A program made the translations under genes and the position numbers. From Methylobacterium radiodurans (lineage in GTDB: Bacteria > Pseudomonadota > Alphaproteobacteria > Rhizobiales > Beijerinckiaceae), in NCBI RefSeq assembly GCF_003173735.1, contig NZ_CP029551.1, positions 5,475,696 through 5,539,695 on the forward strand: DNA of 64,000 nt, written 5' to 3'. Below, in pieces: positions 10,851 to 54,608 of the stretch. How positions within the stretch are numbered: position 1 is the first letter of the stretch; each line of letters opens with the position of its first letter. The notes under the pieces were generated by a model, which saw only the letters and a list, made by a program, of their open reading frames with translations, was not told the origin of the DNA and did not search any database.

Positions 10851-11648
10851 TCAGGTATCCCAGCGCGGCGGGCGCTTCTGCAGAAAGGCGTCGATCCCCT
10901 CGGCCGCCTCGGCCATCAGCATGTTGCGGGTCATGACCGCGGAGGCATCGGCATAGGCCTCCGCGAGGCCGAGTTCGGCCTGCCGTCCGAAGGCCTTCTT
11001 GCCGATCGCCAGAACGCGCGGCGCCTTCGCGGCGATGCGGGCGGCGAGCGCCCGAGCGCCCGCCGCGAGGTCGGAGGCGGGGACCACCCGGTTGACCAGG
11101 CCGATGCGCAGCGCCTCTGCGGCGTCGATCGGCTCGCCGAGGAGCAGCATCTCCATGGCCGCCTTGCGCGGGACCGCCCGCGAGAGGGCGACCATCGGCG
11201 TCGAGCAGAACAGTCCGATCTGCACGCCGGGCGTGGCGAAGCGCGCCTCCTCCGAGCAGATCGCGAGGTCGCAGGTGGCCACGAGCTGGCAACCCGCCGC
11301 AGTGGCGACCCCGTGCACCTGCGCGATCACGGGCTGCGGCAGGCGGGTGATCGCAAGCATCAGGGCCGAGCAGGCCTCGAACAGGGCCCGGACGGAATCG
11401 GCCGAGGGATCGGCCCGCATCTCCTTGAGGTCGTGCCCGGCACAGAAGGCGGGCCCCGCGCCTCGCAGCACCACGACCCGCACCGAGCGGTCGTCGCGGA
11501 TGACGTCGAGCGCGCCGTGGAGCGCCGCCATCAGCCCGCGCGAGAGGGCGTTGCGCGCCGCGCCGCGGTTGAGGGTCAGGGTTGCGATCCCGTCCGCGTC
11601 CTCGCGCAGCAGCAGGGGTTCCGGGACGGATGGCGCGACGGCGGGCAT
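10851..11648 (-). CDS. Enoyl-CoA hydratase/isomerase family protein
   Basis: 265 residues from ATG 11648. The crotonase fold is clear: the oxyanion-hole segment AFCAGHDLKEM near residue 65 and the second conserved block HGVATAAGCQLVATCDLAI. Such proteins hydrate or isomerise acyl-CoA thioesters in fatty-acid or amino-acid breakdown. The version with GHDLKE and few acidic catalytic residues resembles the ECHDC3-like subgroup, whose physiological substrate is uncertain. It converges on the UDP-glucose dehydrogenase gene with only 13 bp between stop codons. The half-length acyl-CoA-synthetase-like gene lies upstream on the same strand. Confidence 0.88.
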   Translation of the reverse strand: MPAVAPSVPEPLLLREDADGIATLTLNRGAARNALSRGLMAALHGALDVIRDDRSVRVVVLRGAGPAFCAGHDLKEMRADPSADSVRALFEACSALMLAITRLPQPVIAQVHGVATAAGCQLVATCDLAICSEEARFATPGVQIGLFCSTPMVALSRAVPRKAAMEMLLLGEPIDAAEALRIGLVNRVVPASDLAAGARALAARIAAKAPRVLAIGKKAFGRQAELGLAEAYADASAVMTRNMLMAEAAEGIDAFLQKRPPRWDT

Positions 11649-11754
11649 CGGGGTACCTCGTTGCAGGAGCCGCGAGCCTAGAGCCGTCCGCGGGCGCACT
11701 GCAATCCGGAGAGCCCGCCCGGCATGGGAGGCCGGCACCCGCGTCGTCGGCGCG

Positions 11755-12549
11755 CTAGCACAGGGTGCCCGGACGCGGGCCGCTCTCAACCACCACGACT
11801 CCGCCGCGCAGGAGGACGCCGCAGGCTTCGGCGACCGCGCGAAACTCCGCGGGGCAGACCTCGATGGCGCGGGGCAAACCGAGGCTCGCGCCCTGAGCCC
11901 AGGCCAGGATCTGCCGGTGGCTCGCCGCCGCCACCGTGGGGGCCGCGCCCCGGTGACCCGAGCAGGCGAGCAGCGCGGCATCGTCGGCACCGACTTCACC
12001 CGGTCCGGCCAGCTCTTCGCCCTCGTATTCGGCCGCCTCGATGTCGATCCGGGCGAAGTCGGCGCCCGGCCCGTGCCAGCGCACTGCCGGCATCTCCGGT
12101 ATCAGCGCCGCCAGGGCCTGGACGCCCTCGGCACAATCGGGATCGGCCACGAGGAGGCGCGGGGCCAGAGAAGCCAGGGTTCGAGCGAGGCACGCGCCGG
12201 AGAGGCTCGCGTCGACGAGCGCAACCCGGGCGCCCGCCAGCGCGAAGCCGAGCCAGAGGGCGAGGCTAGCGGGGCCGTGGCGCATCAGCAGGGCCACGGT
12301 GTTGCCGGACCCGAACCCCTCCGCCTCGGCGTAGCGAGCGTAGCGGGCGAGATCCGCGCCGAACGCGGCATAGCTGGTGCAGCCCGCCGGCCCGGCGAAG
12401 GCCGGGGCCGGGCCGTGCACCGCAGCAGCCTCCGCCACGATCTGCGGAAGGCAGATCTGCGGGCGGAAGGCGGCGAGACCCTGCCGCCCGGCTCCGGGCC
12501 GAATGGTCGGCATCGGAGTGTCGGTGCGGGGGTGAGCGGCGTGCAGCAT
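11755..12549 (-). CDS. Half-length AMP-forming acyl-CoA synthetase-like protein
   Basis: 264 residues that resemble only the N-terminal half of long-chain acyl-CoA synthetases and FATP-like proteins: an N-terminal block with FAGPAGCTSYAAFGADLAR, a middle segment GNTVALLMRHGPASLALWLG, and a degenerate version of the AMP-binding P-loop at CSGHRGAAPTVAAASHRQI, where the family norm is TSGTTGxPKxxxxSH. The catalytic C-terminal half is absent and the gene ends at a TAG with no coding remnant after it. Function is doubtful: it may be a decaying gene or a regulatory or binding-only derivative. An internal start at 12513 is possible. It sits 106 bp upstream of the enoyl-CoA hydratase on the same strand. 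Confidence 0.6.
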   Translation of the reverse strand: MLHAAHPRTDTPMPTIRPGAGRQGLAAFRPQICLPQIVAEAAAVHGPAPAFAGPAGCTSYAAFGADLARYARYAEAEGFGSGNTVALLMRHGPASLALWLGFALAGARVALVDASLSGACLARTLASLAPRLLVADPDCAEGVQALAALIPEMPAVRWHGPGADFARIDIEAAEYEGEELAGPGEVGADDAALLACSGHRGAAPTVAAASHRQILAWAQGASLGLPRAIEVCPAEFRAVAEACGVLLRGGVVVVESGPRPGTLC

Positions 12550-36849: not shown

Positions 36850-36867
36850 GTGGCGGAAGGGGTGGGA
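36850..36867. repeat. attL core
   Basis: 18 bases identical to the end of the tRNA-Ser gene at 54518-54535. No tRNA body flanks it here, as expected for the distal end of an element integrated into a tRNA 3' end. Confidence 0.88.
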
Positions 36868-39043: not shown

Positions 39044-39060
39044 ATTGCCCACTGCACTAG
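39044..39060 (+). promoter_or_regulatory. CACTAG motif copy 1 (phage-promoter-like)
   Basis: ATTGCCCACTGCACTAG, first of four 17-bp copies of ATTRCCCNCYGCACTAG in the element. It lies 51 bp upstream of the ATG at 39112 with the same orientation as that gene, as a promoter would. It resembles the CACTA core of T7/T3/SP6-type promoters. Confidence 0.5.
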
Positions 39061-39111
39061 CCCTACAGGGCGTCATCGACAGCCATGTGGCTGGCATCGA
39101 AAGGCACACCT

Positions 39112-39819
39112 ATGTCTGAAGTCACGATCACTCCCGATCAGCGTAACGAAATGCTCTCTTATGTCTCTCGGGTAGAGGCTCATGTTGCCGCTGACCGCCG
39201 CAAATTGAGAAGCTTGAAAAAGGGAACAACTGAGCACAGCCAGCTTCGAACTAAAATTGATGAGATGGCGCAACGCAATAAAACCTACAGGCAGCAAGTT
39301 GCCCATCTCGCCAGCGGCAAGGCCACGAAGGAAGATGAGAGGAATTTCATCGAAACAGTCTGCCGATGGATAGAAGAAGACCGCCTCCAGCAGCAAAACG
39401 AACTTGCTGAATGGTGCAAGGATCGCCTTGGTGAGGACATGACTGTTCTTCTACCAGATGGCGCCAAAGCACCTGCCTGGAAATTCTGGCTCAGTCAGCG
39501 TGTCTCAACTGCCCCTGAAGCAAAATATCTGACTAATGAGACTGTCCGCGTCAATGCCCTTTATGAGGAGTATGCGCCGGAAGTTCCGAAAGGCGAACGT
39601 TGCCAGAGAGCATTTCGGATTGCACTCAAAAGCATTGACCTTGAGGTGGAGAACTATGAGTTTGATGGCAGCGACATGAAGATATTGATGCTTGCCAACG
39701 GACTTGAAGAAGGGGATTTCGAAATTACGAATGGGCACGATGGGCCGATTGTGCGCTTAGATGCTGAAGCATTGCGTCGCCTGGGGACACCCAAGGGGAT
39801 CAGCACATCGATCAACTGA
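39112..39819 (+). CDS. Hypothetical protein with N-terminal coiled coil
   Basis: 235 residues from ATG 39112 (an ATG at 39085 would add nine). Residues about 10-75 are heptad-like and charged (QRNEMLSYVSRVEAHVAADRRKL...). The C-terminal part is acidic. AT-richer than the host, with codon use unlike the chromosome, so acquired recently. No family was recognised. Downstream of CACTAG motif copy 1. Confidence 0.65.
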   Translation: MSEVTITPDQRNEMLSYVSRVEAHVAADRRKLRSLKKGTTEHSQLRTKIDEMAQRNKTYRQQVAHLASGKATKEDERNFIETVCRWIEEDRLQQQNELAEWCKDRLGEDMTVLLPDGAKAPAWKFWLSQRVSTAPEAKYLTNETVRVNALYEEYAPEVPKGERCQRAFRIALKSIDLEVENYEFDGSDMKILMLANGLEEGDFEITNGHDGPIVRLDAEALRRLGTPKGISTSIN

Positions 39820-39950
39820 GAGGTACACTGGAACGGGCGCCAACCGCTGGCACTCGACGCGGAAGCAGGAGCCCTCCGTCCCGCCTTCCCCACCCCTCGA
39901 TTTGCTGCCAAGCTGCCCCATATCAGCGCGGCTGAAGGCGAGGGGTATCA

Positions 39951-40388
39951 ATGTACGGGCGTGATCTGCGAACCATCACGATAGATGAGTTCCACGCCCC
40001 ATACCTCATCGAGGTCATTCAGGCCGAGATGGACCGCCTCAAGGTCATACAAGACGGCCACAGAGACCGCTGGGAAAAGCCCGAATATGCCAGGGTGAGG
40101 GTGCTGCGGAACGAACTACACCGCGTCTGGAGCCGACTGACGAACGAACTCTACGTGATGGGACCACCATCTCTTGAGGACGTTCAGTTCCTTGAGGAGC
40201 ATATCCAGAGGGTATCCACCGACGTGCCCCGTTCAGCAGGGAATGCGACCGCCTACAGGATCGAGCGGGCGAAGGAGCGGGCCGAGCGGGAAGTCCGAGA
40301 GGCGGAACGTAGAGCCAAGAGGCGGCCACGTAGGCGCTCCTGGCGACCGCCTGTCGTGATCGATGAGCAGCCCTCTACGGGCTCTTGA
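39951..40388 (+). CDS. Hypothetical highly charged protein
   Basis: 145 residues. The N-terminal half is helical with IEVIQAEMDRLKVIQDGH; the C-terminal half is an Arg/Glu-rich helix (RAKERAEREVREAERRAKRRPRRR), likely coiled coil or nucleic-acid-binding. No family was recognised. Confidence 0.6.
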   Translation: MYGRDLRTITIDEFHAPYLIEVIQAEMDRLKVIQDGHRDRWEKPEYARVRVLRNELHRVWSRLTNELYVMGPPSLEDVQFLEEHIQRVSTDVPRSAGNATAYRIERAKERAEREVREAERRAKRRPRRRSWRPPVVIDEQPSTGS

Positions 40389-40597
40389 GTAGCGCCGAAG
40401 GTTTCACCGAAAAAATCTGAGGCGGCATCGACCAATTCGAGTCGGCCAGTTTCCCCCTGCCACCCCCTCTAGACGCGCGTGGTATCCCGCCCGGTATCGC
40501 GCTCAAGCGCACGAGAAAGGCACGCACGGGTGCCTGGAGGATGCGGTGGGATGGTGGAGGTAGAGGCCGCCGTCTCCAGCAGCCCCTACGCGCCTCT

Positions 40598-40879
40598 TCA
40601 GCGGCTCCCTGAGTTGCCCTTAGCGCCCGGTGTCGAGCCTGACCCGGCATCGTTGGCACCCGTGCTGTTGGACGTGCCTGACCGGCTCATGCTGCCCGTA
40701 GAGGGGCCACTACCGGAAGCACCAGGGGATGACCCTGAGCCTGCATCGTTGGCCCCGGTGCTGTTCATGGTGCCCGAGCGGGTCTCACCGGAGCCCTTAG
40801 CGGGGCTGCCCTCAGCGGCGTAGGCGGCTGTGCCGAGTGCCAGCGTGGCGGCTGCGACGATCAAGTCGGATGTCCGCAT
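40598..40879 (-). CDS. Small exported Ser/Gly-rich repeat protein
   Basis: 93 residues from ATG 40879. Signal peptide (IVAAATLALGTAAYA). The mature protein is low complexity with two copies of NSTGANDAGSGS(S/T)PGA. No enzyme features. Comparable tiny exported repeat proteins occur in Methylobacterium chromosomes, so this may be host-derived cargo. Confidence 0.6.
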   Translation of the reverse strand: MRTSDLIVAAATLALGTAAYAAEGSPAKGSGETRSGTMNSTGANDAGSGSSPGASGSGPSTGSMSRSGTSNSTGANDAGSGSTPGAKGNSGSR

Positions 40880-41202
40880 GGCCTTCTCCTTCGACGTTTC
40901 CCTGCCACCTCTTGCGTGGGTGACCTGGGCTAACGCGAGATTGCCATTCCCGTTCAGGAACGACCCGATGTCACATGGCCGTTGGCATGTGGTGTGCAGA
41001 CCAGTCGTGCCCCTCCCAGGTCTCAACCCCAGGGTCGGGGTCGCGGGTCGGCCGGTAAGGCTTCGTCTCCTCTCCCGGTCGGCCCGTCGCGGCTCCCCAC
41101 GATAAGTCCAGAGATCAAGGCATCAGCAGCGTTCAGATACGATCCACACCATCAGCAGCCGTGCCTCTCGCGACTGGTCGATTGCCGGCTATAGATGGGG
41201 TG

Positions 41203-41433
41203 ATGACGAACGGCACAGGCGTTAAGACGCAACGCCTCAAGGCGCACCTGATCATGGTCGAGCGGGCTGGTAAGCGCCGCCGGCTTTATGCAGTGGTGCA
41301 GCCAACCGCTGAGGTCGCTCTAGACGCTGTGCGGGCTGCTTATCCAGGCGCTCAGATCACTCTTGTTGGCGGCTTCGGCAGAGCGTTGACACGCAAGCTC
41401 AAGCTCAAGCGAGACGAGATGCGGAGGGTCTGA
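41203..41433 (+). CDS. Small basic hypothetical protein
   Basis: 76 residues from ATG 41203; a GTG at 41161 would give 90. Very basic, with KRRRLYAVVQPTAEVALDAVRAAYPGA; possibly nucleic-acid binding. No family was recognised. Confidence 0.45.
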   Translation: MTNGTGVKTQRLKAHLIMVERAGKRRRLYAVVQPTAEVALDAVRAAYPGAQITLVGGFGRALTRKLKLKRDEMRRV

Positions 41434-41458
41434 GACGAGTGGTGGGGTCAGCCCTCAG

Positions 41459-41591
41459 CGTTCCAATAGGGCAAGCTCTAGCGGAACGTTCCAGAGGATA
41501 GGCAGAGCGGTTCCAGACAAGTCCCATTGCATTTTGGAACGGGATGAGGCTCTATGTCTAGGAACCTAGTGGAACGACCTAACCCGGAACG
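41459..41591. repeat. Phased GGAAC/GTTCC array upstream of the resolvase
   Basis: GGAAC or its complement occurs at 41460, 41483-41492 (palindrome GGAACGTTCC), 41510, 41536, 41561, 41571 and 41586. Apart from the copy at 41571 the centres are about 25 bp apart (41462, 41488, 41512, 41538, 41563, 41588). The first copies are in one orientation and the last ones in the other. It overlaps the 5' end of the serine recombinase gene; a resolution site or operator is inferred. Confidence 0.6.
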
Positions 41592-42162
41592 CCCCGCCAT
41601 GCTCATTGGATACGCTCGCACGTCCACCCTGGAACAGGAGGCCGGCATAGAGGCTCAGGTTCGTGACCTGACGGCCCTCGGTTGTGAGAAGCTGTTTCGG
41701 GAGCAGGTCTCCTCTGTGGCCCCTCGCAAGCAGCTTGAGGCAGCCGTTGAGTTCGCCCGTCAGGGTGACACGCTGGTAGTCACGAAGCTCGACAGGTTAG
41801 CCCGCAGCGTCACCCACCTGGGGAAGATCATCGAGGCCCTGGAGGCGAAGGGCGTGGCGCTACGCATCGTGAACCTCGGGGTGGATACCTCGACACCCAC
41901 CGGCAAGCTGATGCTCAACGTCCTCGGGGGCGTAGCTCAGTTTGAACGAGAGATGATGCTGGAGCGGCAGCGTGAAGGCATCGCCAAGGCCAAGGCTGAG
42001 GGCGCCTACAAGGGCCGCAAGCCAACCGCGCGGGCCAAGGCGGAGGAGATCAAGGCTCTAGCGGCAGAGGGGCTGAGCATGGGCGCAATCGCCACCAAGC
42101 TGGGGATCGGCAAGGGCAGCGTACACCGGGCGCTGAACTCCAAAGCAGAAACAGGCAGTTGA
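41554..42162 (+). CDS. Serine recombinase (resolvase/invertase family)
   Basis: 202 residues from ATG 41554; ATG 41599 (MLIGYARTST) would give the usual family N-terminus and is equally likely. The catalytic Ser is in YARTSTLEQ, with the conserved LVVTKLDRLARS and the E-helix region. A C-terminal helix-turn-helix (LSMGAIATKLGIGKGSVHRAL) binds DNA. The length is that of Tn3-type resolvases and DNA invertases, which act at paired sites. The phased GGAAC array overlaps its start, so autoregulation or local recombination is likely. Confidence 0.92.
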   Translation: MSRNLVERPNPERPAMLIGYARTSTLEQEAGIEAQVRDLTALGCEKLFREQVSSVAPRKQLEAAVEFARQGDTLVVTKLDRLARSVTHLGKIIEALEAKGVALRIVNLGVDTSTPTGKLMLNVLGGVAQFEREMMLERQREGIAKAKAEGAYKGRKPTARAKAEEIKALAAEGLSMGAIATKLGIGKGSVHRALNSKAETGS

Positions 42163-42268
42163 GGCCACGATCTTGTCGGCCCCCATTACGATAAATAGCG
42201 GCCAGCTTCTCTTCCGCACGAGAATTGCAATTTGCTGGCCTGCCTAGATTGCCGACAAATCGAGATCG

Positions 42269-42748
42269 TCAGAGGCTTTGTTTGTATATGCTGCCCACCC
42301 TGTTTAACCCCAGCTTATCGAAAAAATGATGCGCCTTCTCAGGGTCGATTCCAGTCGTATGCCCCAGGCATAGTTCCTTAGCGCCCTGAGTTTGAGCCCA
42401 CTTTTTGAAACGGCGAATGAGCATCAAGGCGATAACTCCTCCCCTGGCCTTTCTCGGCACGAAAAGGAAAAGGTCTTGAGCGATTCGATCTCTCGAAAAA
42501 AAGTACTCTGAGACGTACCCAAGCAGGATGCCTGACATTCTTCCCCGACGCTTATAAATGAAGCAGACGGTAAATGGACTGGCATTATCGCAAGCCGATT
42601 TCAGCAAGGCTTTGACCTTAGCATCATCGAAACGGATATTTCGGTATATGCTCTCTTGATGAAGGGCTTTGGCAAGTAGGTGAGCTTCGGCAAGCCCGTC
42701 GTCTGTAAGTAGTCTAACCCCGCTGTCTGTGGATACGGGCTTTGACAT
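42269..42748 (-). CDS. GNAT-like acetyltransferase
   Basis: 159 residues from ATG 42748 (an upstream ATG at 42778 is possible). It shows the GNAT pattern: a central strand GILLGYVSEYFFS, DLFLFVPRKARGGVIALMLIRRFKKWAQTQGA as the acetyl-CoA loop and helix, and a C-terminal HHFFDKLGLNRVGSIYKQ typical of GNAT strand 7. Substrate unknown. GNAT genes of this type occur beside phage structural genes. Lower GC than the host. It diverges from the DUF4214 gene. Confidence 0.7.
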   Translation of the reverse strand: MSKPVSTDSGVRLLTDDGLAEAHLLAKALHQESIYRNIRFDDAKVKALLKSACDNASPFTVCFIYKRRGRMSGILLGYVSEYFFSRDRIAQDLFLFVPRKARGGVIALMLIRRFKKWAQTQGAKELCLGHTTGIDPEKAHHFFDKLGLNRVGSIYKQSL

Positions 42749-42825
42749 CGAGAAGTCTCTTGACGGCGCAAAGGGCATCCACCATGGTCTGTCAAGCTTA
42801 AAAATCCGTATACTATGAGGGCGCC

Positions 42826-44565
42826 ATGTGTGGGGGCGGGAGCATATTTGCTGACATTGGGCGGGGGATCGCCCATCTTGGTGGGCAAATTAATGACCAC
42901 ATCATTCAACCAATCGGCCAAGGCATCGCTGCGCTTGGTAGCGGAATCTACAATGGCCTAATTACCCCGATAGTTAATGAGGTTGCCAAGATCGATTGGG
43001 GTCATGTTCTGAAGGAAACTGGTAAGTTTGCCCTAGAGGTTTGGAATACCTTTGTGCAGGGCTTTTCTCGAAATGGCGGATTAAACGAAGGGCAAGAGCC
43101 ATCCATCGATGATGATTGGAATATTGATGGAGGCATCGAGTTTGTTGGGGATCAAATCGAGACAACTGTCGCATTTTATTGGAACAAGATTGAAGATTAC
43201 TATGAAGGCACCAAGAAAAATTTCCAAGATTGGTATGATGAACATGCCAATTGGATGGAAAGGCGGATGGATGAGATTAAAAGAGGCTTCGATTTGCTAT
43301 CCGCCGACGCTGCGAATAATAAAATAACAGAGACAGTCTTTAAGCAGCGGATGGAGAATACTCTTGCTGTATTTAAGGACGAGGTTCAAACGCTGCTAAC
43401 AGATACTAAGGCCGTCATGCTAGCCTCAACGTCGGTTGGCATCGTACCTGTTCAACAGGGCGGCATCGCACATGGCATAGCTTTGAAGGTTGACGACACA
43501 GCGAACCACATCATTACGCTGGAAGAATCGTCTAATGTGTCGTTTGAAGTCTCTGGAATTCCCAGGAAGATAACTGGTCTCACTACCGCTAGCGTTCGCA
43601 CTGGGGGCGAACTCATCGAGTCATACAAAGCTTCTTTCACAGACGGGAGTCACACTGTAACAAAATTTGTTAGCGGAAATGGTAAGTTCTCGGTTGATCT
43701 TTCAGGCTTGCATGGGAATGTAATTGGAAGCCTAGAAGTTCAGAACGTCACTGGATTTAAAGGGGAAGCCTTATCGAACAAACTTACCATTGATACGCAC
43801 TCTCAATACTTTGGTAAGAAATTCTACGATAGCCATAGCCCGGCTGGAGAAGTATATGCGCTCTATAAGGGACTGCTTGGAAGAGAGCCCGATCCTATTG
43901 GCCTATCGGACTGGACTAAGGCCCTAAGCGCGGGAACCAAAGTTCAAGACATCGCTCAGGGTTTCCTACGTTCGCCGGAAGGGCAGGCCCGCGCGGGTGC
44001 GTTGGACAACGCGTCTTTCGTGGAGCAGCTGTACAGCACCACCCTCCATCGGCACTCTGATGCCAACGGCCTTAAGGGCTGGGTGAAGGCTCTGGAAAGT
44101 GGCACGTCCAGGGCGCAAGTTGCCACAAGCTTCGCTCTATCAGACGAGCATGTTAACAGCCTCAAAGGCGCGCTAGATGCTGGCATCTTCGTTCCTGACG
44201 CGGTAGCGGCCAACGTAGCTCGGCTCTACTATGCCGTGCTTGATCGTGCTCCTGACGCCGCTGGTCTTACGGGCTGGACTTCAGCTGTTAAAGGTGGCCA
44301 ATCACTGGAGGCCGTGACGAAGAGCTTCCTTGCGGCTCCTGAGGTACAGGCTAAAACGGCAAAGCTTACGAATTCCCAGTATGTTGACATGATCTATCAG
44401 AACGCGCTTGGCAGGCATGCGGAGCCCAAAGGGCTTGCTGATTGGACTGCCGAACTCGATCATGGTGCATCGCGGGTAGGTGTGACGACAGCAATCGGTC
44501 TGAGTACCGAAGCCCAGAAGCACCACCTTTCTCAGATTGAGATGGGATGGCAGCTCGTTGGCTAA
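42826..44565 (+). CDS. DUF4214-repeat protein with phage-like N-terminus
   Basis: 579 residues. The N-terminus (MCGGGSIFADIGRGIAHLGG, IGQGIAALGSGIYN) resembles the start of some phage virion or tail-associated proteins. Residues 90-200 are helical, about 200-320 beta-rich. From about residue 345 there are four DUF4214 units recognisable by YxxLLGREPDxxGLxDW-type motifs (at about 350, 400, 470 and 525). DUF4214 usually occurs in secreted adhesins and RTX-type proteins. No signal peptide or membrane helix. The first two thirds are clearly AT-richer than the DUF4214 part, which suggests a composite gene. Role unknown. Confidence 0.75.
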   Translation: MCGGGSIFADIGRGIAHLGGQINDHIIQPIGQGIAALGSGIYNGLITPIVNEVAKIDWGHVLKETGKFALEVWNTFVQGFSRNGGLNEGQEPSIDDDWNIDGGIEFVGDQIETTVAFYWNKIEDYYEGTKKNFQDWYDEHANWMERRMDEIKRGFDLLSADAANNKITETVFKQRMENTLAVFKDEVQTLLTDTKAVMLASTSVGIVPVQQGGIAHGIALKVDDTANHIITLEESSNVSFEVSGIPRKITGLTTASVRTGGELIESYKASFTDGSHTVTKFVSGNGKFSVDLSGLHGNVIGSLEVQNVTGFKGEALSNKLTIDTHSQYFGKKFYDSHSPAGEVYALYKGLLGREPDPIGLSDWTKALSAGTKVQDIAQGFLRSPEGQARAGALDNASFVEQLYSTTLHRHSDANGLKGWVKALESGTSRAQVATSFALSDEHVNSLKGALDAGIFVPDAVAANVARLYYAVLDRAPDAAGLTGWTSAVKGGQSLEAVTKSFLAAPEVQAKTAKLTNSQYVDMIYQNALGRHAEPKGLADWTAELDHGASRVGVTTAIGLSTEAQKHHLSQIEMGWQLVG

Positions 44566-44600
44566 TGCATCCTTCTTGCCGACTTGACTTATAGCTTTCA

Positions 44601-44633
44601 GGGAAGCCGCTGCATTGGCTCCGGTGGCTTCCC
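44601..44633 (+). terminator. Hairpin after the DUF4214 gene
   Basis: GGGAAGCC (44601-44608) pairs with GGCTTCCC (44626-44633). There is no T-tract, so termination is only a possibility. Confidence 0.35.
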
Positions 44634-44645
44634 CTCCCCGCGCTC

Positions 44646-45572
44646 ATGGTCCGCGAGATCGGGGGTGAGCCCCGCGTGCTCGATACAGACCTCGCGCGTG
44701 CTCTGGGCATGGAGCGCCCCACCAACATCCGCACGATGATCAAGGGTCTGCGGGAGGAACTAGAGCGGTTCGGGGTTTTACACGCCGAGCGTGCAAATAG
44801 CAGCGACGCGCTCGGTCGCGGACGCCCTGCCACCGCCTACCACCTCAACGAGGAGCAAGCGGCCTACGTCACGATGCACTGCAAGACCGAGAAGGCCACC
44901 GAGGTGAAGGTGCTCCTCGTCAGGGTCTTCACCGCTTGGCGCCACGGCAAGCTCGTCCCGGCCCAGCCGATGCAGTCAGCCATCGACTTCATCAACCCCC
45001 TGGAGACCGCCAAGCTGATCATGGCGGAGATGACCACCAAGACCTCCACCTTCTCGTTCGCTGGCCTCGATCTGCGCTGCGTCACCATCGAGGGCCAGCC
45101 GTTGTTCGTAGCCGAGGACGTGTGCCGCATGACCGGCCTCGAAGGCTACGCGTCGAAGCACACCGCGAAGCTGCCCATCGAGGAGCGCCGGGTGGTGTCT
45201 GCCGCAACTTACGGCACACTCGGCATCTTCAAGCCTAAGCAGCCGAGCGCCACTCTCGTGAGTGAGAAGGGCCTCTACACCCTCGTCATGCGCGCCCAGA
45301 AGGCCAACCCCAAGGCCCGTGAGTTCCAGTCCTGGGTCACCGGAACGGTCCTCCCCACGATCCGCCAGACGGGCGGCTACATCCAGGGCGAGGAGAAGTT
45401 GGCCACGGGGGAGATGACTGAGGAGCAGTTCTTCGCCCTCGCGGTGCTCACGATGCAGGGGCAATTACCCCCCGCACTAGGAAAAACCGCTGGCGACCCA
45501 CCCAGCGCCGCTCCCAGTCCCTGTCGATCACGCTTCAGGACAACGAGCCCCGCGTGCTGGACACGGCCCTAG
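44646..45572 (+). CDS. Phage antirepressor with N-terminal regulator domain and BRO-N domain
   Basis: 308 residues. The N-terminal 95 residues (EPRVLDTDLARALGMERPTNI...GRGRPATAYHLNEEQA) are a phage regulatory domain related to the Rha type. From about residue 135 there is a BRO-N domain (FAGLDLRCVTIEGQPLFVAEDVCRMTGL). The C-terminal 30 residues are unlike a KilAC domain and overlap CACTAG motif copy 2, suggesting a truncated end. Antirepressors switch phage programmes by binding repressors. The next gene is a second copy of the N-terminal domain. Confidence 0.8.
   Translation: MVREIGGEPRVLDTDLARALGMERPTNIRTMIKGLREELERFGVLHAERANSSDALGRGRPATAYHLNEEQAAYVTMHCKTEKATEVKVLLVRVFTAWRHGKLVPAQPMQSAIDFINPLETAKLIMAEMTTKTSTFSFAGLDLRCVTIEGQPLFVAEDVCRMTGLEGYASKHTAKLPIEERRVVSAATYGTLGIFKPKQPSATLVSEKGLYTLVMRAQKANPKAREFQSWVTGTVLPTIRQTGGYIQGEEKLATGEMTEEQFFALAVLTMQGQLPPALGKTAGDPPSAAPSPCRSRFRTTSPACWTRP
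45464..45480 (+). promoter_or_regulatory. CACTAG motif copy 2
   Basis: ATTACCCCCCGCACTAG followed by GAAAAA, inside the 3' end of the antirepressor frame and 73 bp before the GTG of the next gene at 45554. Same orientation as that gene. Confidence 0.55.
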
Positions 45573-45817
45573 CCGCCCAGCTCGGGATGACCAAGCCTGA
45601 GAACATCCGCACGCTCATCAAGGATCACATGGAGGAGCTGGAGGCGTTCGGGGTTGTCTGTCGCCGCCAGATTACCTCCGGTCCCAAAGGCGGGCGGCCC
45701 GGAACGGCCTACTACCTCAACCGGCAACAGGCGCTCCTCATCTGCATCCTCTCGAAGACCGACAAGGCCAAGGAGGTGCGCGCTGAGGTGATTCGGCAGG
45801 ATCGCTCAAGCCATTGA
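45554..45817 (+). CDS. Antirepressor N-terminal-domain paralogue
   Basis: 87 residues from GTG 45554. It repeats the N-terminal domain of the preceding gene (EPRVLDTALAAQLGMTKPENIRTLIKDHMEELEAFGV... GRPGTAYYLN). The conserved domain extends upstream of the GTG by at least three residues (EPR), so the true start may be a non-standard codon nearer the CACTAG motif. It lacks any BRO or KilAC part. It arose by local duplication. Confidence 0.65.
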   Translation: MLDTALAAQLGMTKPENIRTLIKDHMEELEAFGVVCRRQITSGPKGGRPGTAYYLNRQQALLICILSKTDKAKEVRAEVIRQDRSSH

Positions 45818-45847
45818 AGGCAAGAGATCAAACGTCCATACAGACAT

Positions 45848-45864
45848 ATTACCCGCTGCACTAG
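45848..45864 (+). promoter_or_regulatory. CACTAG motif copy 3
   Basis: ATTACCCGCTGCACTAG followed by GAAAAG. In the 215-bp gap before the polymerase-like gene, same orientation. Confidence 0.6.
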
Positions 45865-45922
45865 GAAAAGAGCCGCACTCCATCTGAGATGGGGGGTATC
45901 TGTTTTTTGCGACCCAGCCCGG

Positions 45923-45939
45923 ATTACCCCCTGCACTAG
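45923..45939 (+). promoter_or_regulatory. CACTAG motif copy 4
   Basis: ATTACCCCCTGCACTAG followed by CGAAGA, 75 bp after copy 3 and 93 bp before ATG 46033. Two tandem copies in front of one gene fit a promoter array. Confidence 0.6.
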
Positions 45940-46032
45940 CGAAGACGCGTCAAGCGCCCGTCTCCGCCCACTTCACCCGCCACAGGAACCCCACATGCCG
46001 GAACCACCATGCCGTGCGCCGAGAGGCGTGCG

Positions 46033-47331
46033 ATGAACACCCATGCCCGCCATCGTTGGCTTGACGAGTGGCAGGGAGCAGGAACCCAACGCCTTCGCAG
46101 GATCGTGGACGAAGGTGCGGCCCTTGTCGCTCAGTACGAACGGGAGACCCGACATCGGCAGCGTCAACGTCGTTCAGCAGACCAAGCCAACCACCTCAGG
46201 GCCATCGAAGCGACCGTTTGCAATCTCGCTTATGCCGTGCTGATGCCCCCGCCTACGGGACGCATCGCGCTTCTCACGGGCAACGGTGACAGCGGCTTCA
46301 GTCGGTACGATAGCCCAGCTTTCGGGCGGCCTTTCCGTGACCTCTTGGCGGCCCTCGATGCTATCGGGTGGCTCAGCCTGGAGCGAGGCTACCGAGATCG
46401 GAGCGGAGGCGTTGCCTCGTCCATCGCGCCTACGGCTGTGCTCAAGGCCAAGGTGACAGAGGCGGGCATCTCCCTGACCGACTTCGGACGGATCGAGGGG
46501 GAAGAGGTCATCCTGTTCAGCCGGAAGGTGGTCACAACCCCTGATGGCCCTGCCCGTAAGGAGCTGGTGGAGTACCAAGACACTGCCACGCTCCGAGACC
46601 ATCGCGACACCCTGAGGAGCCTCAACGCCTTCCAGGCTCAGGCAGACATCACCTTCCTGGATGATGGTCTCGGGATGGTGGACCTCCAGAACCGGGTTCA
46701 GCGGAGGCACTTCCTCTGCGACGCGGAGGGACAACCTGATGCGTCTCTTGGAGGGCGCCTCTACGGCGGTGCTTGGCAGAACCTCCAGCGGCACCGGAGG
46801 GGCCACATCAGGATCGAGGGGGGACCCGTCACTCTCTTGGACTACAGCGCAATGGCCCCTCGGTTGGCCTATGCCAGCGTTGGGGTCGAGCCTCCTCCCG
46901 GTGACATCTACGCTCTACCGGGCATCGACCCTGAGCACCGCGAGGCTGTGAAGAAGGCGTTCAACACCCTCCTGTGTGATCCCTTCACCCGGAAGCGGGG
47001 ATGGCCTCAGCCTGAGGACAGTGACCCAAGGCTCCCGCTAGCGTGGTCAGTGCCTCGCTTCAGGGATGCCCTCCTGTCCCGTCACCCAGCCTTGAGCCAC
47101 TGTCTGGGCCGGGGTCTCGCCAAGCAACTCCAGAACACGGAAAGCCTGATCCTCATCGAGGTGATGAGGGAGATGAAGTCCAGGGCTGTCCCTATCCTCA
47201 CCATCCATGACGGTCTTCTCTGTCAATCCCCCAAGGCATCGGAGATAGAGGTGGTGATGAAGGAAGCAGCCCAAAGCATCACCTCATTCAACATCCCTGT
47301 CAGCGTTACTCACCTGCCTGCTGCTGTCTAA
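46033..47331 (+). CDS. Short polymerase-like protein with palm motifs A, B and C
   Basis: 432 residues from ATG 46033, preceded by GAGAGG (ATG 46009 would add eight). The C-terminal half carries three motifs in the order seen in family-A DNA polymerases and T7-type RNA polymerases. Motif A is LLDYSAMAPRLAY (D270), motif B-like is REAVKKAFNTLL (K307-N311), and motif C is ILTIHDGLL (H392-D393). The segment LGRGLAKQLQNTESLILIEVM before motif C resembles the family-A helix with Q...E. The N-terminal 200 residues match nothing recognised; there is no exonuclease domain, and fingers/thumb would be minimal. Related unannotated proteins occur in other proteobacterial elements. Activity (DNA or RNA synthesis) is inferred only from the motifs. 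Confidence 0.65.
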   Translation: MNTHARHRWLDEWQGAGTQRLRRIVDEGAALVAQYERETRHRQRQRRSADQANHLRAIEATVCNLAYAVLMPPPTGRIALLTGNGDSGFSRYDSPAFGRPFRDLLAALDAIGWLSLERGYRDRSGGVASSIAPTAVLKAKVTEAGISLTDFGRIEGEEVILFSRKVVTTPDGPARKELVEYQDTATLRDHRDTLRSLNAFQAQADITFLDDGLGMVDLQNRVQRRHFLCDAEGQPDASLGGRLYGGAWQNLQRHRRGHIRIEGGPVTLLDYSAMAPRLAYASVGVEPPPGDIYALPGIDPEHREAVKKAFNTLLCDPFTRKRGWPQPEDSDPRLPLAWSVPRFRDALLSRHPALSHCLGRGLAKQLQNTESLILIEVMREMKSRAVPILTIHDGLLCQSPKASEIEVVMKEAAQSITSFNIPVSVTHLPAAV

Positions 47332-47493
47332 GGAACACCAAACGACCATATACAGGAACCGTAAGGCAGCAGACTAGGCGGCTCCGCCCTCTTCCAACGA
47401 GCCATGCCCGGCCCACAGCCAAGCAGCCACACTCACAGCACAGTGCGGTGCAGAACTCCCCGTCAGAGCCTGAGGCACAGACGGAGCGACTGC

Positions 47494-47775
47494 ATGGGTG
47501 AGCGTCAACAAGCGGCTGAGGGCGCACGAGTCATCACCTTACCTACTCGGCTGGTGGTCGCAGAGCCTGATGCGGAGTTGGCGTCTCTCATCCAAGTCCT
47601 ACAGGACCAGCTTGTCTTGGCACGAGAGGGTAAGCTGCGCTCCGTGGCTGTGGCAACTGTGTCCACGGACGGCAAGGTGGTGGATACGCACTGGTCTTGC
47701 GAGCACAAGGACATCACGAGCCTCATAGGCAAGCTGACCGTGCTGACGCATGACCTGATGGCCGCTCGGAATTAG
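47494..47775 (+). CDS. Small hypothetical protein
   Basis: 93 residues from ATG 47494. Sequence pattern LVVAEPDAELASLIQVLQDQLVLAREGKLRSVAVATVSTDGKV occurs in small proteobacterial phage and plasmid proteins of unknown role. It follows the polymerase-like gene by about 160 bp and is followed by two terminators. Confidence 0.65.
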   Translation: MGERQQAAEGARVITLPTRLVVAEPDAELASLIQVLQDQLVLAREGKLRSVAVATVSTDGKVVDTHWSCEHKDITSLIGKLTVLTHDLMAARN

Positions 47776-47812
47776 CGCCTACCGAAGCGCACAAGTCCCT
47801 GAACGACCTGTA

Positions 47813-47839
47813 GAGGAGCCCTAACACGGCTCCTCTTTT
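47813..47839 (+). terminator. Rho-independent terminator
   Basis: GAGGAGCC and GGCTCCTC form an 8-bp perfect stem with a 7-base loop, followed by TTTTC. It closes the transcript of the 93-residue gene. Confidence 0.85.
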
Positions 47840-47915: not shown

Positions 47916-50225
47916 ATGAACGATCCCGTCCCATCACAGGGCGCGAGCGAAGGCACCGTGCTGCCCGAACTCAGCGTCACGGCCCCTAAGCAGCCTGTAC
48001 CTGCCACTCCTAAGCTCCCCTCGATGACGCAGGTGGCACCGCCTCAGATGCCACCTCAGGAGCCCGTAGCGACTCCTGTAGAGGCCCCGCCTTCCGGTAA
48101 GCCTCAGCCGCCTGTGGCTACTCCCCCGGCCCCCACGGTGCCCTCAGAGCCCCGCAAACGGGCTGTGGACCTGATGCCCCCTCCAATGCCCGACAGGGCT
48201 CCTATAGACGCCCCCATCACGGGCGCTTCATGGGAACCCGAGCTGGAGCGTTCGGCTGCCTCAGCGGGTGTAGACGCGGGCGTGATGCGCAAGCTGGCGT
48301 CCACGGAGAACGCTACAGGTAACCCGAGACTGAAGGCGGCAACCTCATCGGCCGTGGGCATCTTTCAGATCGTCGGGCCTACGTGGAACGATCTGGCAGC
48401 TCGCTATCCCCAGCTCGGGCTCACCGATCCTCGCGATGCCATTCAGCAGGCCCGTGTGGCTCCCTTCTACATGAGGGAGATCAGCGAGAACCTTCAGCGC
48501 AAGCTAGGGCGCAAGCCTAACGCCGCTGAGATGAAGCTGGGCTGGGTCTTCGGGCCCACGGGTGGCTCCCTCCTGATGGGTGCTGACCCTGACACTCCGG
48601 TTGAGCGCGTGCTGGACCGGAAGGCCATCGACAGCAACCCCGGCATCTTCAAGAACGTCAGGACCGTGGGTCAGCTCTACAACTGGGCTGGTGAGAAGAT
48701 GGGCGAACAGGGGGCACACCCTAAGCCCGCTGTAGACCTCTCTCCGTACCTCGCTCAGGGTAAGGACAGGGACCATCTGGATAGGATGGACTGGGACTTG
48801 AAGTCCCGTCTGGCCAACATGGTGGCTGACATGCCCGAGAACATCCGGGCTAAGTTCCAGATCAACAGCGGCTATCGATCCCCTGAACGACAGGCTGAGC
48901 TGTTCGCTGAGGCTGTCAAGAAGTACGGCTCTGAGGAAGCTGCCCGTAAGTGGGTGGCTCCTCCAGGGAACTCCCAACACAACCACGGTAAGGCCGCTGA
49001 CATCAACATGGGTGGCGACCCTGCGGTGAAGGCATGGATACACGCCAACGCCGCTAAGTACGGCCTTGGGTTCCCTATGGCGCACGAGCCGTGGCACATC
49101 GAGGCCCTGGACGCCCGCTCTACGCGCAACGCCAGGATGGGTCTTCAGGTGGACCCTGCGTCCACTGCAATGCGTGTCCCGTTCACCTTCGAGGACCAAC
49201 GCAAGGCCGCAGAGCAGCGCGAGAGGGAAGCCTACAGCCTCGTTCAGGCTGCCCGTGAGAGTGCTTCACAGGATTGGATGGTCAGCAACATGCTGAAGTC
49301 CAACGGTAAGACCGTCTACGATCCTGGGTATAGCGTCACTCAGGAGACCCTTCAGCGGGATGATGTCAAGGGTCTGCCGCCCTCCTATCTGCCTTATCTC
49401 TCCAAGTCGATGAGTGAGCAGGACTTCAACTTCCGTCTGGCTCAGGCTCAGAAGGACTTTGAGGTGGAGAGGCGCCTTGCTGCGACCCCCTACGGCACTG
49501 CCATCCGCATGGCTGTGGGCATGTACGGGGAGAACGGCCGTAAGGTCCGCATCCTCGGCCTGGAGCAGTGGGAGCCGCAGGTTCGCTCAGCGTTCGAGCA
49601 TGCCATCTCGACGTGGACCAGACGGGCAGTCCAGCAGAACGACCTGGGGCAGATGAACGCCGTCCTGGGGCATCCTGTGGCCAAGGTGGTGACCCAGTTC
49701 CGCAACTTCGTCCTCGGTGCATGGTCGAAGCAAACCCTGTCGGCCCTCCACACCCATGAGCTGAACGACCTCTACGGGTTCATGGCCTCGATGATGTTCG
49801 GGGCGATGGCCTACACCGTTCAGACCAACCTCAGCCTTATCGGTCTGAGTGAGGAGGACCGGGCCAAGGCCGCCTCAGACCGCCTCAGTGACCGCAAGAT
49901 CGCTCAGGCGGGATTCCAGCGTGCCGGTGCATCGTCGCTCATCCCCGGAGCCTTCGACCTGGGGGCAGAGCTGTTCGGGTTCGATCCCCTGTTCAACACC
50001 CGGAGCACGCAGCAGCCCACTGCCGGCCTCATGTCCAACCCCACGGTCGGGTTGCTGGACGGGCTCTACACGGGCGTGAAGGGGTTCACAGGCTCCCTTC
50101 ACGAGGATGGGCATGTGACCAGCGGTGACGTTCGGAACCTCTCCAAGGCCCTGAACGTGCTGCACAACTACCCCGGTATGCTCCAGCTCATAAACACCGC
50201 ATCGTCCCGCTACCCCAGCCAGTAA
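47916..50225 (+). CDS. Phage internal core protein with transglycosylase and VanY peptidase domains
   Basis: 769 residues. The first 90 are Pro-rich and disordered. About 105-240 resembles an SLT lytic transglycosylase: catalytic Glu131 in [11 protein letters not shown] and [14 protein letters not shown]. About 290-405 is a VanY-type D-Ala-D-Ala carboxypeptidase: zinc ligands H355 and D362 ([12 protein letters not shown]) and H390-x3-H394 (HEPWHIE). From about 420 the chain resembles the end of podovirus internal virion proteins ([21 protein letters not shown]..., with hydrophobic [15 protein letters not shown]). Such proteins are ejected with the genome and open the peptidoglycan. The two cell-wall activities in one chain are unusual. 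About half the length of T7 gp16. Confidence 0.8.
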
Positions 50226-50323: not shown

Positions 50324-50833
50324 ATGTCAGACGAGACCAACGCCCCAGAGCCAGCACCAGTACGCCACATCACCATCGCCTTTGACGGAGGCTGTCTCGG
50401 GAACCCAGGCCCTGGAGGCTATGCGGCCATCCTGATCAATGACCGCACGGGTAGGGAGAAGATCGTGAAGGGCGGTGAGCCCGAGACCACGAACAACCGG
50501 ATGGAGCTATGGGCTGCCATCGAGGGCCTAAACGCCCTCCGACCGGGCGCCATCGTCCACATGATCGGGGACAGCCAGTACGTCATCAAGGGCATCACGG
50601 AATGGCTGCCCCGCTGGAAGGCTCAGGGCTGGCGTGGAGCGGGCGGTAAGGCTGTCGCGAACGCGGACCTATGGCGAGGGCTTGATGCGGCTGTGGAGCG
50701 GCATGAGAGCGTTGCGTGGACGTGGGTGAAGGGCCACGCTGGACATGTGCTGAACGAGCGCGTGGACAGGATCGCGAACGGGGAAGCCTCACGGAATGGG
50801 TTAGGTTGCAAAAGGTATCGGGCAGATTGTTGA
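50324..50833 (+). CDS. Ribonuclease HI
   Basis: 169 residues. All RNase HI acidic residues are visible: Asp in [17 protein letters not shown], Glu in [12 protein letters not shown], Asp in MIGDSQYVI, and the final Asp in [12 protein letters not shown]. It cleaves the RNA strand of RNA-DNA hybrids. The last 15 residues ([10 protein letters not shown]) depart from the family end, which suggests the 3' end was replaced. In phages such enzymes remove RNA primers. Good ribosome site AAGGAG. Confidence 0.93.
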
Positions 50834-52705: not shown

Positions 52706-54421
52706 CTATCTTCGGCCTCTCGGATGAATGTGCAGGTGCGAGAGGTCCAGCTCTGCATAGCGTACCTTCTCGATCTCCCGGTACAGCGTCGAGGCCTTCA
52801 ACCCCTTACCGTAGATGGCCTCCTCTCCTTCACTGTCCCTACGCCACCCTCCAAGCGCCCGAACCCGCTCAAGGCCAATCTCGGCCTCCCTGAGGGCATC
52901 CCGGTAGTTGTGCCTGAAACTGTGAAACGATACCCCGTTCACGTCCATGTCGAGCTTCCCCAGGAAGCGCCGCTTGTCGTTGAACCACTTAGAGAAGGGT
53001 CCAGACAGATAGCCAAGGCTGTCGGGCATCAGCTCGGGAAACAGGCGGCGCTCTCCTTTGGCCTTCATGGCTTCCGCGAACGCTGAGAAGCCGATGCGTT
53101 GCAGCTCGGGATGGATCGGGACGAACCGCTTGCCGGCTTCCGTCTTCACGCGCTTTTTGTCGGCCTCATCAGCCCCAGGCTCACCGGCATCATCAATGAG
53201 GATGACCGGCACACCGTCCAGCACGCTCACGTCATCGGTACGGAGCTGGCAGCACTCCCCAAGCCGCATCCCAGTCCACAACGATAACAGAGGCACCCAG
53301 AAGCGGCCACGTCGAATCACGTTTGGCCCCGGCTTGGCGTACCCTGCCTCGTCATCCTGGCAGCCCGTGTAAAGCGGGGCGTTGAAGATGGCCTTGAGCT
53401 GTGCCGTGCTGAAGGGCTGACGCAGATCACGCTCATCCCGATCATCAGGGAGGGCCAGCCCCTCAGCCGGGTTGCGGATGACCCTCCAGTTTTTCACGCC
53501 CCATTTGAACAGGGCTGAGAGGTTGTGGAGGTAGTTGTTGACTGCCGAAACCCCAAGCCGCTCCAGCTTCTCCGCATCGGCCACCTTCGCGGCCTCCTCC
53601 AGCGACAGCCCAGGAAACCGCTGAGACGCGTTCCGGGGAAGCCGCATGATGACGTTGCGGATACGCTCGCAGTCCATTCGGTGGATGCTGTCCACGGGGG
53701 TCTCCGCCCCCAGCAACTCCCTCATGGCCCTGAAGACAGTCTGATAGGTCTTCAAGGTTCCGGGGGTACGGGTGCGGGTAGGGTCCGACAGGTATGCCTG
53801 TATCAGCTCCTCAACGGTGCAGGAGCGTGGCGACGAGGCTGCTGAGGGTGGCGGTGGGGTCTCGACCACCTCTCCGCGGTTCCTTTGAATGACCCCATCG
53901 GACCACTTCTTCTGAGCCTTCAGCATGGCGAAGCCCAGACGCCGCCATGTCTCCGATCCCTCAGGGGCGGTGAGACCGTGCGCCTTCAAAACGCCTTCGA
54001 CCTCACTCCAAATCGTGTCCATGCTGCCAGTTGCCAGCTCCTTCGCCACCATCGGCGCCACAAGCTCAGCAGCATGGAGCATGCGGTCGAAGCGCTCGGG
54101 GGAAACGCCATTCTGACGCTTGCTTTCGTCATCAGCCAGCAGACGTGACAGCCATGCAGATGCGAAGCGGTCTGCCTCAGCTTGACTGATGGTGTCCTCA
54201 GCCCCGGCCAAGCGACGCCGGGCGGTATCCAACTCCCGATCAAACTCGACCGTCTTCAAGCGGGCGCGTCGAACCGCTTCAGCCCTATCGGCCGTGCCAA
54301 GGGCAATCCACTTCTGCCCGCTTCGGCCTCCAGGGATCACCTCACGCAACTCGGGAGGTACCCAGGCACGAAAGGAGTAGGTGCCATTCTTGCGGCGGAC
54401 GAGACGAGTTTCCAGGCCCAT
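52706..54421 (-). CDS. int: Tyrosine recombinase / element integrase
   Basis: 571 residues. N-terminal arm-binding segment with YSFRAWVPPELR, a long helical middle region, and the catalytic domain: Arg in LWTGMRLGECCQL, His-x-x-Arg in SFHSFRHNYRD, and a candidate Tyr near the C-terminus (EAIYGKGL). Its longer than usual N-terminal region is typical of this alphaproteobacterial island integrase subgroup. It is encoded next to attR in tRNA-Ser and transcribed away from the tRNA. Paired CTGTAGC arm sites lie directly upstream of its start (54435-54454), so it may repress itself. Confidence 0.95.
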   Translation of the reverse strand: MGLETRLVRRKNGTYSFRAWVPPELREVIPGGRSGQKWIALGTADRAEAVRRARLKTVEFDRELDTARRRLAGAEDTISQAEADRFASAWLSRLLADDESKRQNGVSPERFDRMLHAAELVAPMVAKELATGSMDTIWSEVEGVLKAHGLTAPEGSETWRRLGFAMLKAQKKWSDGVIQRNRGEVVETPPPPSAASSPRSCTVEELIQAYLSDPTRTRTPGTLKTYQTVFRAMRELLGAETPVDSIHRMDCERIRNVIMRLPRNASQRFPGLSLEEAAKVADAEKLERLGVSAVNNYLHNLSALFKWGVKNWRVIRNPAEGLALPDDRDERDLRQPFSTAQLKAIFNAPLYTGCQDDEAGYAKPGPNVIRRGRFWVPLLSLWTGMRLGECCQLRTDDVSVLDGVPVILIDDAGEPGADEADKKRVKTEAGKRFVPIHPELQRIGFSAFAEAMKAKGERRLFPELMPDSLGYLSGPFSKWFNDKRRFLGKLDMDVNGVSFHSFRHNYRDALREAEIGLERVRALGGWRRDSEGEEAIYGKGLKASTLYREIEKVRYAELDLSHLHIHPRGRR

Positions 54422-54517: not shown

Positions 54518-54535
54518 GTGGCGGAAGGGGTGGGA
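54518..54535. repeat. attR core
   Basis: 18 bases identical to 36850-36867; covers the last bases of the tRNA-Ser acceptor/T arm, including the encoded CCA, plus one base. Confidence 0.88.
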
Positions 54536-54608
54536 TTCGAACCCACGGTGGAGTTGCCCCCACGGCGGTTTTCAAGACCGCTGCCTTAAACCGCTCGGCC
54601 ACCCTTCC
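54519..54608 (-). tRNA. tRNA-Ser (anticodon TGA)
   Basis: 90 nt on the minus strand. The 5' acceptor GGAAGGGTGGCCGAG pairs with CCCTTCC before an encoded CCA. The T loop is GGTTCGAATCC. The anticodon loop CTTGAAA places TGA at 54574-54572. A long variable arm (GTGGGGGCAACTCCAC) marks a class II serine tRNA. The 3' end is rebuilt by the integrated element and remains complete. Confidence 0.95.

Follow-up and report, generated by a model that had tools for sequence, protein, structure and literature searches.

Motif copies and the element that holds them

The window, i.e., the whole stretch of DNA that was analyzed here, comprises 64,000 bp of Methylobacterium radiodurans (GCF_003173735.1, contig NZ_CP029551.1, positions 5,475,696 to 5,539,695). 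It contains a 17.7-kb element that sits in a tRNA-Ser gene, is flanked by 18-bp direct repeats and holds four copies of a 17-bp promoter-like motif (Table 1). The integrase and the att repeats in a tRNA gene, as expected for a phage satellite, are both present in this element. Of the genes that would characterize an Autographiviridae prophage, the searches described below found neither one for a T7-like RNA polymerase nor any for portal, capsid, tail-tube protein or large terminase. An empty integration site was sought in relatives, but none was demonstrated, as the flanks were not collinear. The region 42269-44565 of the window is an AT-rich cargo stretch, in which a gene with DUF4214 repeats lies beside a divergent open reading frame (ORF) that appears acetyltransferase-like by eye.

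The preliminary description had listed four gap-free 17-mers on one strand, and all of them were recovered with 0 mismatches each on the + strand. Three are clustered within 476 bp and two of these (copies 3 and 4) form a tandem pair upstream of a polymerase-like gene, as had been claimed, and the reported 51 bp between copy 1 and a separate gene holds if this gene begins at ATG 39112, a start that is supported by the homologue in locus L103. All 4/4 copies are on the gene strand and copies 1, 3, and 4 are intergenic. As expected of T7-type promoters, which have one asymmetric conserved block of approximately 17–23 bp reaching to the start, the motif forms a single asymmetric block that ends at the predicted start (count table of 22 sites). 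Scanning the window with up to 3 mismatches returned 4 matches (shuffles: mean 1.2, largest 6; 4/100 shuffles reached 4), hence the tolerant count alone is weak and it is the perfection of all four copies that matters. In the whole genome (5,539,695 bases) these four were the only copies at ≤ 1 mismatch; one additional match with 2 mismatches, located 2.3 Mb away, appeared at ≤ 2 mismatches (all on the + strand), while the reversed pattern used as a control gave 12 matches at ≤ 2 mismatches and 0 at ≤ 1, as compared to 4 for the true pattern. By our own arithmetic, about 0.01 perfect copies would be expected in the genome. Among 297 other genomes of the family, 14 had a single 1-mismatch match each and none had several. 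A wider matrix applied to the whole window (score ≥ 8) added one weak site on the + strand (39377, score 11.2) and none on the other strand. Terminator-like sites around the hairpin between copies 3 and 4 were close to the shuffled number (10 found vs. a mean of 7.5).

Table 1 Features of the window and, in the last row, RNA polymerase fragments of related genomes
Feature	Position	Strand	Remarks
Predicted promoter, copy 1	39044..39060	+	ATTGCCCACTGCACTAG; predicted start 39060 (+/-2); perfect pattern match
Predicted promoter, copy 2	45464..45480	+	ATTACCCCCCGCACTAG, followed by GAAAA; predicted start 45480; wider-matrix score 35.3
Predicted promoter, copy 3	45848..45864	+	ATTACCCGCTGCACTAG, followed by GAAAA; predicted start 45864; wider-matrix score 30.4
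Predicted promoter, copy 4	45923..45939	+	ATTACCCCCTGCACTAG; predicted start 45939; wider-matrix score 25.2
att-like repeat	54518..54535	+	GTGGCGGAAGGGGTGGGA; at tRNA 3' end
Second att-like repeat	36850..36867	+	identical; far end of element
tRNA-Ser(tga)	54519..54608	-	presumed integration target
Tyrosine integrase	52706..54421	-	adjoins tRNA-Ser gene
Gene of unknown function behind copy 1	39112..39819	+	50% relative in L103
Serine recombinase (resolvase/invertase type)	41554..42162	+	relatives in 56/101 loci
Rha/Bro-N antirepressor-like ORF	44646..45572	+	tail runs through copy 2
Second, short Rha-like ORF	45554..45817	+	Pfam match below cut-off
Hairpin followed by T run (region 45878-45910)	45878..45894	+	between copies 3 and 4; terminator-like, putative
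Compact family A DNA-polymerase-like protein	46033..47331	+	ORF opens at 46009; start 46033 chosen from homologues
Small ORF after polymerase-like gene	47404..47775	+	59% relative over 80 residues in L083/L131
Intrinsic terminator-like hairpin	47812..47836	+	9 pairs, T tail; downstream of small ORF
Shortened T7 gp16-like internal virion (ejection) protein	47916..50225	+	transglycosylase-like and VanY peptidase domains
RNase H	50324..50833	+	within the element
T7-like RNA polymerase fragments	L091:12292-15064, L092:8256-8975, L188:1105-2034		near polymerase-like gene in two

Sites in related elements

Genomes were scanned for relatives of the polymerase-like gene, which yielded 100 confirmed stretches, of which 80 loci were kept. 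A first matrix, built from the four copies of the window alone, was used to scan 19 relatives from -3500 to +500 around the homologous gene (39–66% identical in the polymerase-like protein; L122 42% over part of the protein), with shuffles of the gene strand serving as control. Of the sites scoring ≥ 12, all 15 were on the gene strand and none on the opposite one (shuffle mean 1.9, maximum 5), and at ≥ 10 there were 21 vs. 2 (shuffle mean 6.65, maximum 11); 9/19 relatives had a site scoring ≥ 12. GGAAAA or GGAGAA recurs just after the motif in relatives, though these bases lie outside the matrix. A refined matrix, which is partly circular as it was built in part from these matches, gave 30 gene-strand sites in -3500..0 at scores ≥ 14 across 97 loci, 0 on the other strand anywhere and 3 elsewhere, and the plain consensus with ≤ 3 mismatches gave 20 vs. 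6 in L102-L184. Paired sites 44–75 bp apart precede the gene in the window, L103, L107, and L114, and are found further upstream in L102 and L112. Searches de novo were less informative: coding repeats swamped the output of a repeat search in relatives, and an ATTA-anchored pair search in seven relatives returned two unconvincing pairs, both with the lowest score, while the reverse strand gave none. A degenerate promoter-like array was also observed on the minus strand of L070 (~11100-11650), in one non-coding stretch.

Individual elements carry their own versions of the site. Two Ancylobacter loci (L110 and L111) have 3 exact CACTATAGG cores, i.e., the T7 core carried as GCTAAYACCCCACTATAGGA, all on the gene strand and two of them ~235-250 bp before the polymerase-like gene; this exact core was not found in the 13 other loci scanned alongside. 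Of the two paired sites that precede the polymerase-like gene in L103, one has the core CGGACCACTAGGA in common with a site before the homologue of the 39112 gene, which occupies the same place as copy 1 does in the window, while the other site of the pair differs. Across 30 sites from 12 elements, chosen and aligned by hand, similarity was higher among sites of one element (0.744) than among those of different elements (0.640; 0/5000 permutations), also without the window copies (24/5000) and when the ATTA box was additionally dropped (96/5000). Tandem duplication may contribute to this likeness.

Matching sites in T7-like phages

Sites of the same type were found in complete T7-like phages. 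Paadamvirus RHEph01 has 5 sites at ≥ 12, all of them intergenic and on the + strand, the first being located ~90 bp before its RNA polymerase gene, whereas the opposite strand has none; Table 1 of PMC11475235 gives the motif (ATTACCCCTCCCTTAAGCAAAG) as predicted promoter of this phage, and that study describes 26 tested polymerase-promoter pairs including RHEph01, 8 of them active. vTRX32-1, described in PMC8631192 as a phage induced from a lysogen, has 6 + sites at ≥ 14. Both share with the window the box, its distance to the start G and the intergenic position, but differ in the core (CTTAAG, window CACTAG) and in being complete phages that encode a polymerase themselves. Another T7-like phage, Pasto (MT708545), encodes an integrase and a T7-like RNA polymerase and has 5 sites at ≥ 15, all on the + strand, of which those at 11880, 21996, and 42178 are located in or at gaps between genes; at scores 8–10 there are two further sites on each strand. 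Its best site, GATTACCCCGCACACTAGGA, has the ATTACCC box, the CACTAGGA core, the spacing and the gene strand of the window copies, but lies in a complete phage that encodes its RNA polymerase. These sites carry no promoter annotation in the Pasto record, and a literature search found no account of them.

The register of the motif can be compared with LUZ100, whose phage promoters were mapped by ONT-cappable-seq (PMC10134795; three of the eight fell below the threshold of that paper and were recovered manually). ATTACCACACAG is present in 7/8 annotated phage promoters, and these seven features end at base 17-19 counted from its A, which we take to mark the start site; the window motif likewise has the ATTACC box and ends with G at base 17, in agreement with this register, while the LUZ100 core (ACACAGNNNTGGA) is different. 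The T7 promoter as quoted in the same text (TAATACGACTCACTATAG) has the CACTA core, the AT-rich upstream end and the purine start of the window copies, and the Ancylobacter relatives have CACTATAGG, but the window core passes directly to G after CACTA. At position 1088 in its early region, LUZ100 (L196) additionally carries a strong window-type site, AATTACCCCCACTACTAGGAGAAATG (score 23.7), unlike its own annotated phage promoters.

The polymerase-like protein and the search for an RNA polymerase

The polymerase-like protein belongs to PHROG 4756 (function unknown), and the window member has no Pfam or NCBIfam match. Among the structure matches listed, it has a right-hand family A DNA-polymerase fold with motifs A, B, and C, and in a comparison of 17 sequences D278, R311, K315, and H400 were invariant and D401 nearly so (N in L067). 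Judging by sequence, the protein is of a compact family A DNA-polymerase fold, and DNA synthesis is its predicted activity. Relatives were matched in 55/397 genomes of the family. With the window protein as query, tblastn returned no phage record and 3 plasmid records, while a distant family member matched 121 phage records of Rheinheimera, Vibrio, and Shewanella; in viral contigs, no relative was confirmed with single proteins and 3 loci were obtained with an alignment. The family (~430 amino acids (aa)) spans Alphaproteobacteria and some other groups and is often found near serine recombinases and integrases.

A profile search for phage-type RNA polymerases (PF00940) gave no match in the genome of the window. 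Such polymerases were matched in 5/111 Methylobacterium genomes, one of them full-length (G335), and in 4/55 genomes of a smaller Methylobacterium set. ORFs of 239-309 aa that match approximately residues 395-531 of the T7-like RNA polymerase were observed in three Methylobacterium genomes (Table 1), and in L091 a second ORF matches approximately residues 233-391. As for viral sequences, the 59 stretches that matched in two exact-pattern scans of viral contigs were inspected: L237 has relatives of a T7-like portal and exonuclease with one site, five have a weak (24%) capsid match only, and in 14 there is a further site at ≥ 13 on one strand, most of these being free of T7-like matches. Searching de novo in two T7-like prophage stretches revealed no promoter-like family, L094 yielding only masked bases.

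Phage genes in the relatives

After removal of six known duplicates, gene content was surveyed at 101 loci that carry the polymerase-like gene, using tblastn (1e-5) with RHEph01 and Lo5R7ANS proteins as queries against the fetched stretches, which vary in length, some contigs being short. No relative of a T7-like portal, capsid, tail-tube protein, large terminase, DNA polymerase or primase-helicase was found in the fetched stretches, where for the portal, capsid, tail-tube and terminase genes very divergent copies, or ones outside the stretch, could be missed. The loci had relatives of gp16 (3), gp15 (3), gp14 (1), SSB (1) and a tail-fibre-like protein (1), RNA polymerase pieces (2), and serine recombinases (56). 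L108 (12351-19527) has full-length ORFs for gp14, gp15, and gp16 (186, 845, and 1322 aa), and the ejection proteins gp16 in L110 (1721-5473) and gp15 in L104 (12899-15619) are full-length too; no capsid or terminase gene was found in these three elements.

Discussion

Several observations weigh against reading the motif as a promoter of T7-like phage RNA polymerases. Copy 2 overlaps the tail of the Ant-like ORF, upstream of the Rha-like ORF, and copies 1 and 4 are without the second G after TAG. Five of the 19 relatives (L109, L113, L116, L122, and L072) were without a convincing site, L108 had a marginal one only, and L104 and L105 stood out with the refined matrix only. On the side of the phages, two of the five Pasto sites (25071, 32515) are inside ORFs, Lo5R7ANS gave one weak match only (9.9), the T7-like prophage stretch L094 gave no matrix match, and RHEph01 is not named among the active pairs in the part of the PMC11475235 text that was available. 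Only two weak matches (10.9, 9.3) were present around the full-length polymerase gene of G335 (L093), and the two exact-pattern scans of viral contigs did not reveal a helper with the window's own variant (a single match in each of 17 and 42 contigs, respectively, by our own estimate no more than chance). Nevertheless, the four motifs are very probably T7-type promoters, i.e., promoters of a single-subunit phage RNA polymerase, as the preliminary description had proposed, because the relatives have sites on the same strand and in the same place, two of them with the T7 core itself, because polymerase-encoding phages have such sites as well, and because the register agrees with LUZ100. Of the two sources that had been suggested for a dedicated polymerase, a helper phage is favored, while a polymerase on the element is disfavored by the lack of a PF00940 match and by the family A DNA-polymerase fold. 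The cognate polymerase is thus probably supplied by another phage. Taken together, we assign a probability of roughly 0.7 to the joint reading that these are promoters read by the polymerase of an outside T7-like phage and that the element is satellite-like.

The element could alternatively be a decayed prophage: a temperate T7-like prophage would have shed the genes for RNA polymerase, capsid and packaging, and the sites would be relics of its promoters. The shortened gp16, the Rha/Ant pieces that look truncated, the RNA polymerase gene pieces near the same gene in two Methylobacterium relatives and the integrase-bearing T7-like phages known from related hosts would all fit such a history. 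This scenario is harder to reconcile with 101 loci in whose fetched stretches no relatives of the T7-like structural and replication genes listed above were found, while 56 of them carry a serine recombinase, with a polymerase-like ORF that is intact in the window and most relatives, with promoters that persist as tandem pairs, and with the full-length gp14, gp15, and gp16 ORFs of L108; we therefore regard it as unlikely, if far from implausible, and lean somewhat towards a satellite.

The remaining explanations concern the motif itself. If the polymerase-like protein were itself a minimal RNA polymerase of the single-subunit type, transcribing from these promoters and thereby switching on its own gene, one would understand why sites precede this gene in relatives, as a phage promoter does the RNA polymerase gene in RHEph01 and LUZ100, and why the promoter variants track the relatedness of the gene to some extent (by eye); given its fold, we consider this improbable. 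Similarly improbable is a replication iteron, operator or recombination site: seven degenerate copies (≥ 8) lie between -1297 and -906 in L070, mostly in 32-34-bp steps and with a few more by eye, and two copies lie 33 bp apart in L117, but the motif has a single orientation, is non-palindromic, is followed by a purine-rich stretch, includes the T7 core in L110/L111 and occurs singly before genes of complete T7-like phages. The motif also reads LPxALGK in one frame, with the two-fold positions R and Y of the 17-mer at third codon positions, as would be the case in a coding remnant; here the TTA, GCA, and CTA codons, fixed despite a GC-rich genome, and the conservation in relatives of several genera, which contradict a chance origin too, make either possibility negligible.

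Under the promoter reading, the sites would belong to a promoter subclass in which an ATTACC box occupies -16 to -11 and transcription begins at the last G of the motif. They would drive the 39112 gene, the Rha-like ORF and, from the tandem pair, the polymerase-like gene up to the predicted terminator at 47836. Since no phage-type polymerase was matched in the genome, the element is probably read when a T7-like phage enters the cell. In the cycle that we infer from this, which comprises promoter activity, an outside polymerase, a replication role and a satellite life cycle, a T7-like (Autographiviridae) phage would enter and its RNA polymerase would read the promoters of the element, which would then replicate with its own small polymerase, acting as a satellite of such phages. 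Known phage satellites include P4-like elements, PICI, and PICMI. The window element resembles these in its integrase, tRNA att site, small size, the absence of detected capsid genes and presumed helper dependence, but differs in that it would depend on a T7-like phage as helper and be triggered by the RNA polymerase of that phage. In the open-access literature, no publication describing T7-like phage satellites with promoters of this kind was found.

More tentatively, an undescribed and widespread family of integrative satellites in Alphaproteobacteria may parasitise T7-like phages. With its replication gene under the control of T7-type promoters, it would stay silent until the RNA polymerase of the helper serves as an alarm and would then replicate by means of a compact family A DNA polymerase, with some members possibly bringing their own gp14-gp15-gp16 ejection proteins into helper virions. 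T7-type promoters in a chromosome without a detected polymerase are a direct sign of dependence on another phage, and several copies of ATTACCCNCYGCACTAG in a T7-like Methylobacterium phage would name the helper. The element-specific variants may offer new promoter-polymerase pairs and may also reflect the phage polymerases that each host lineage encounters.

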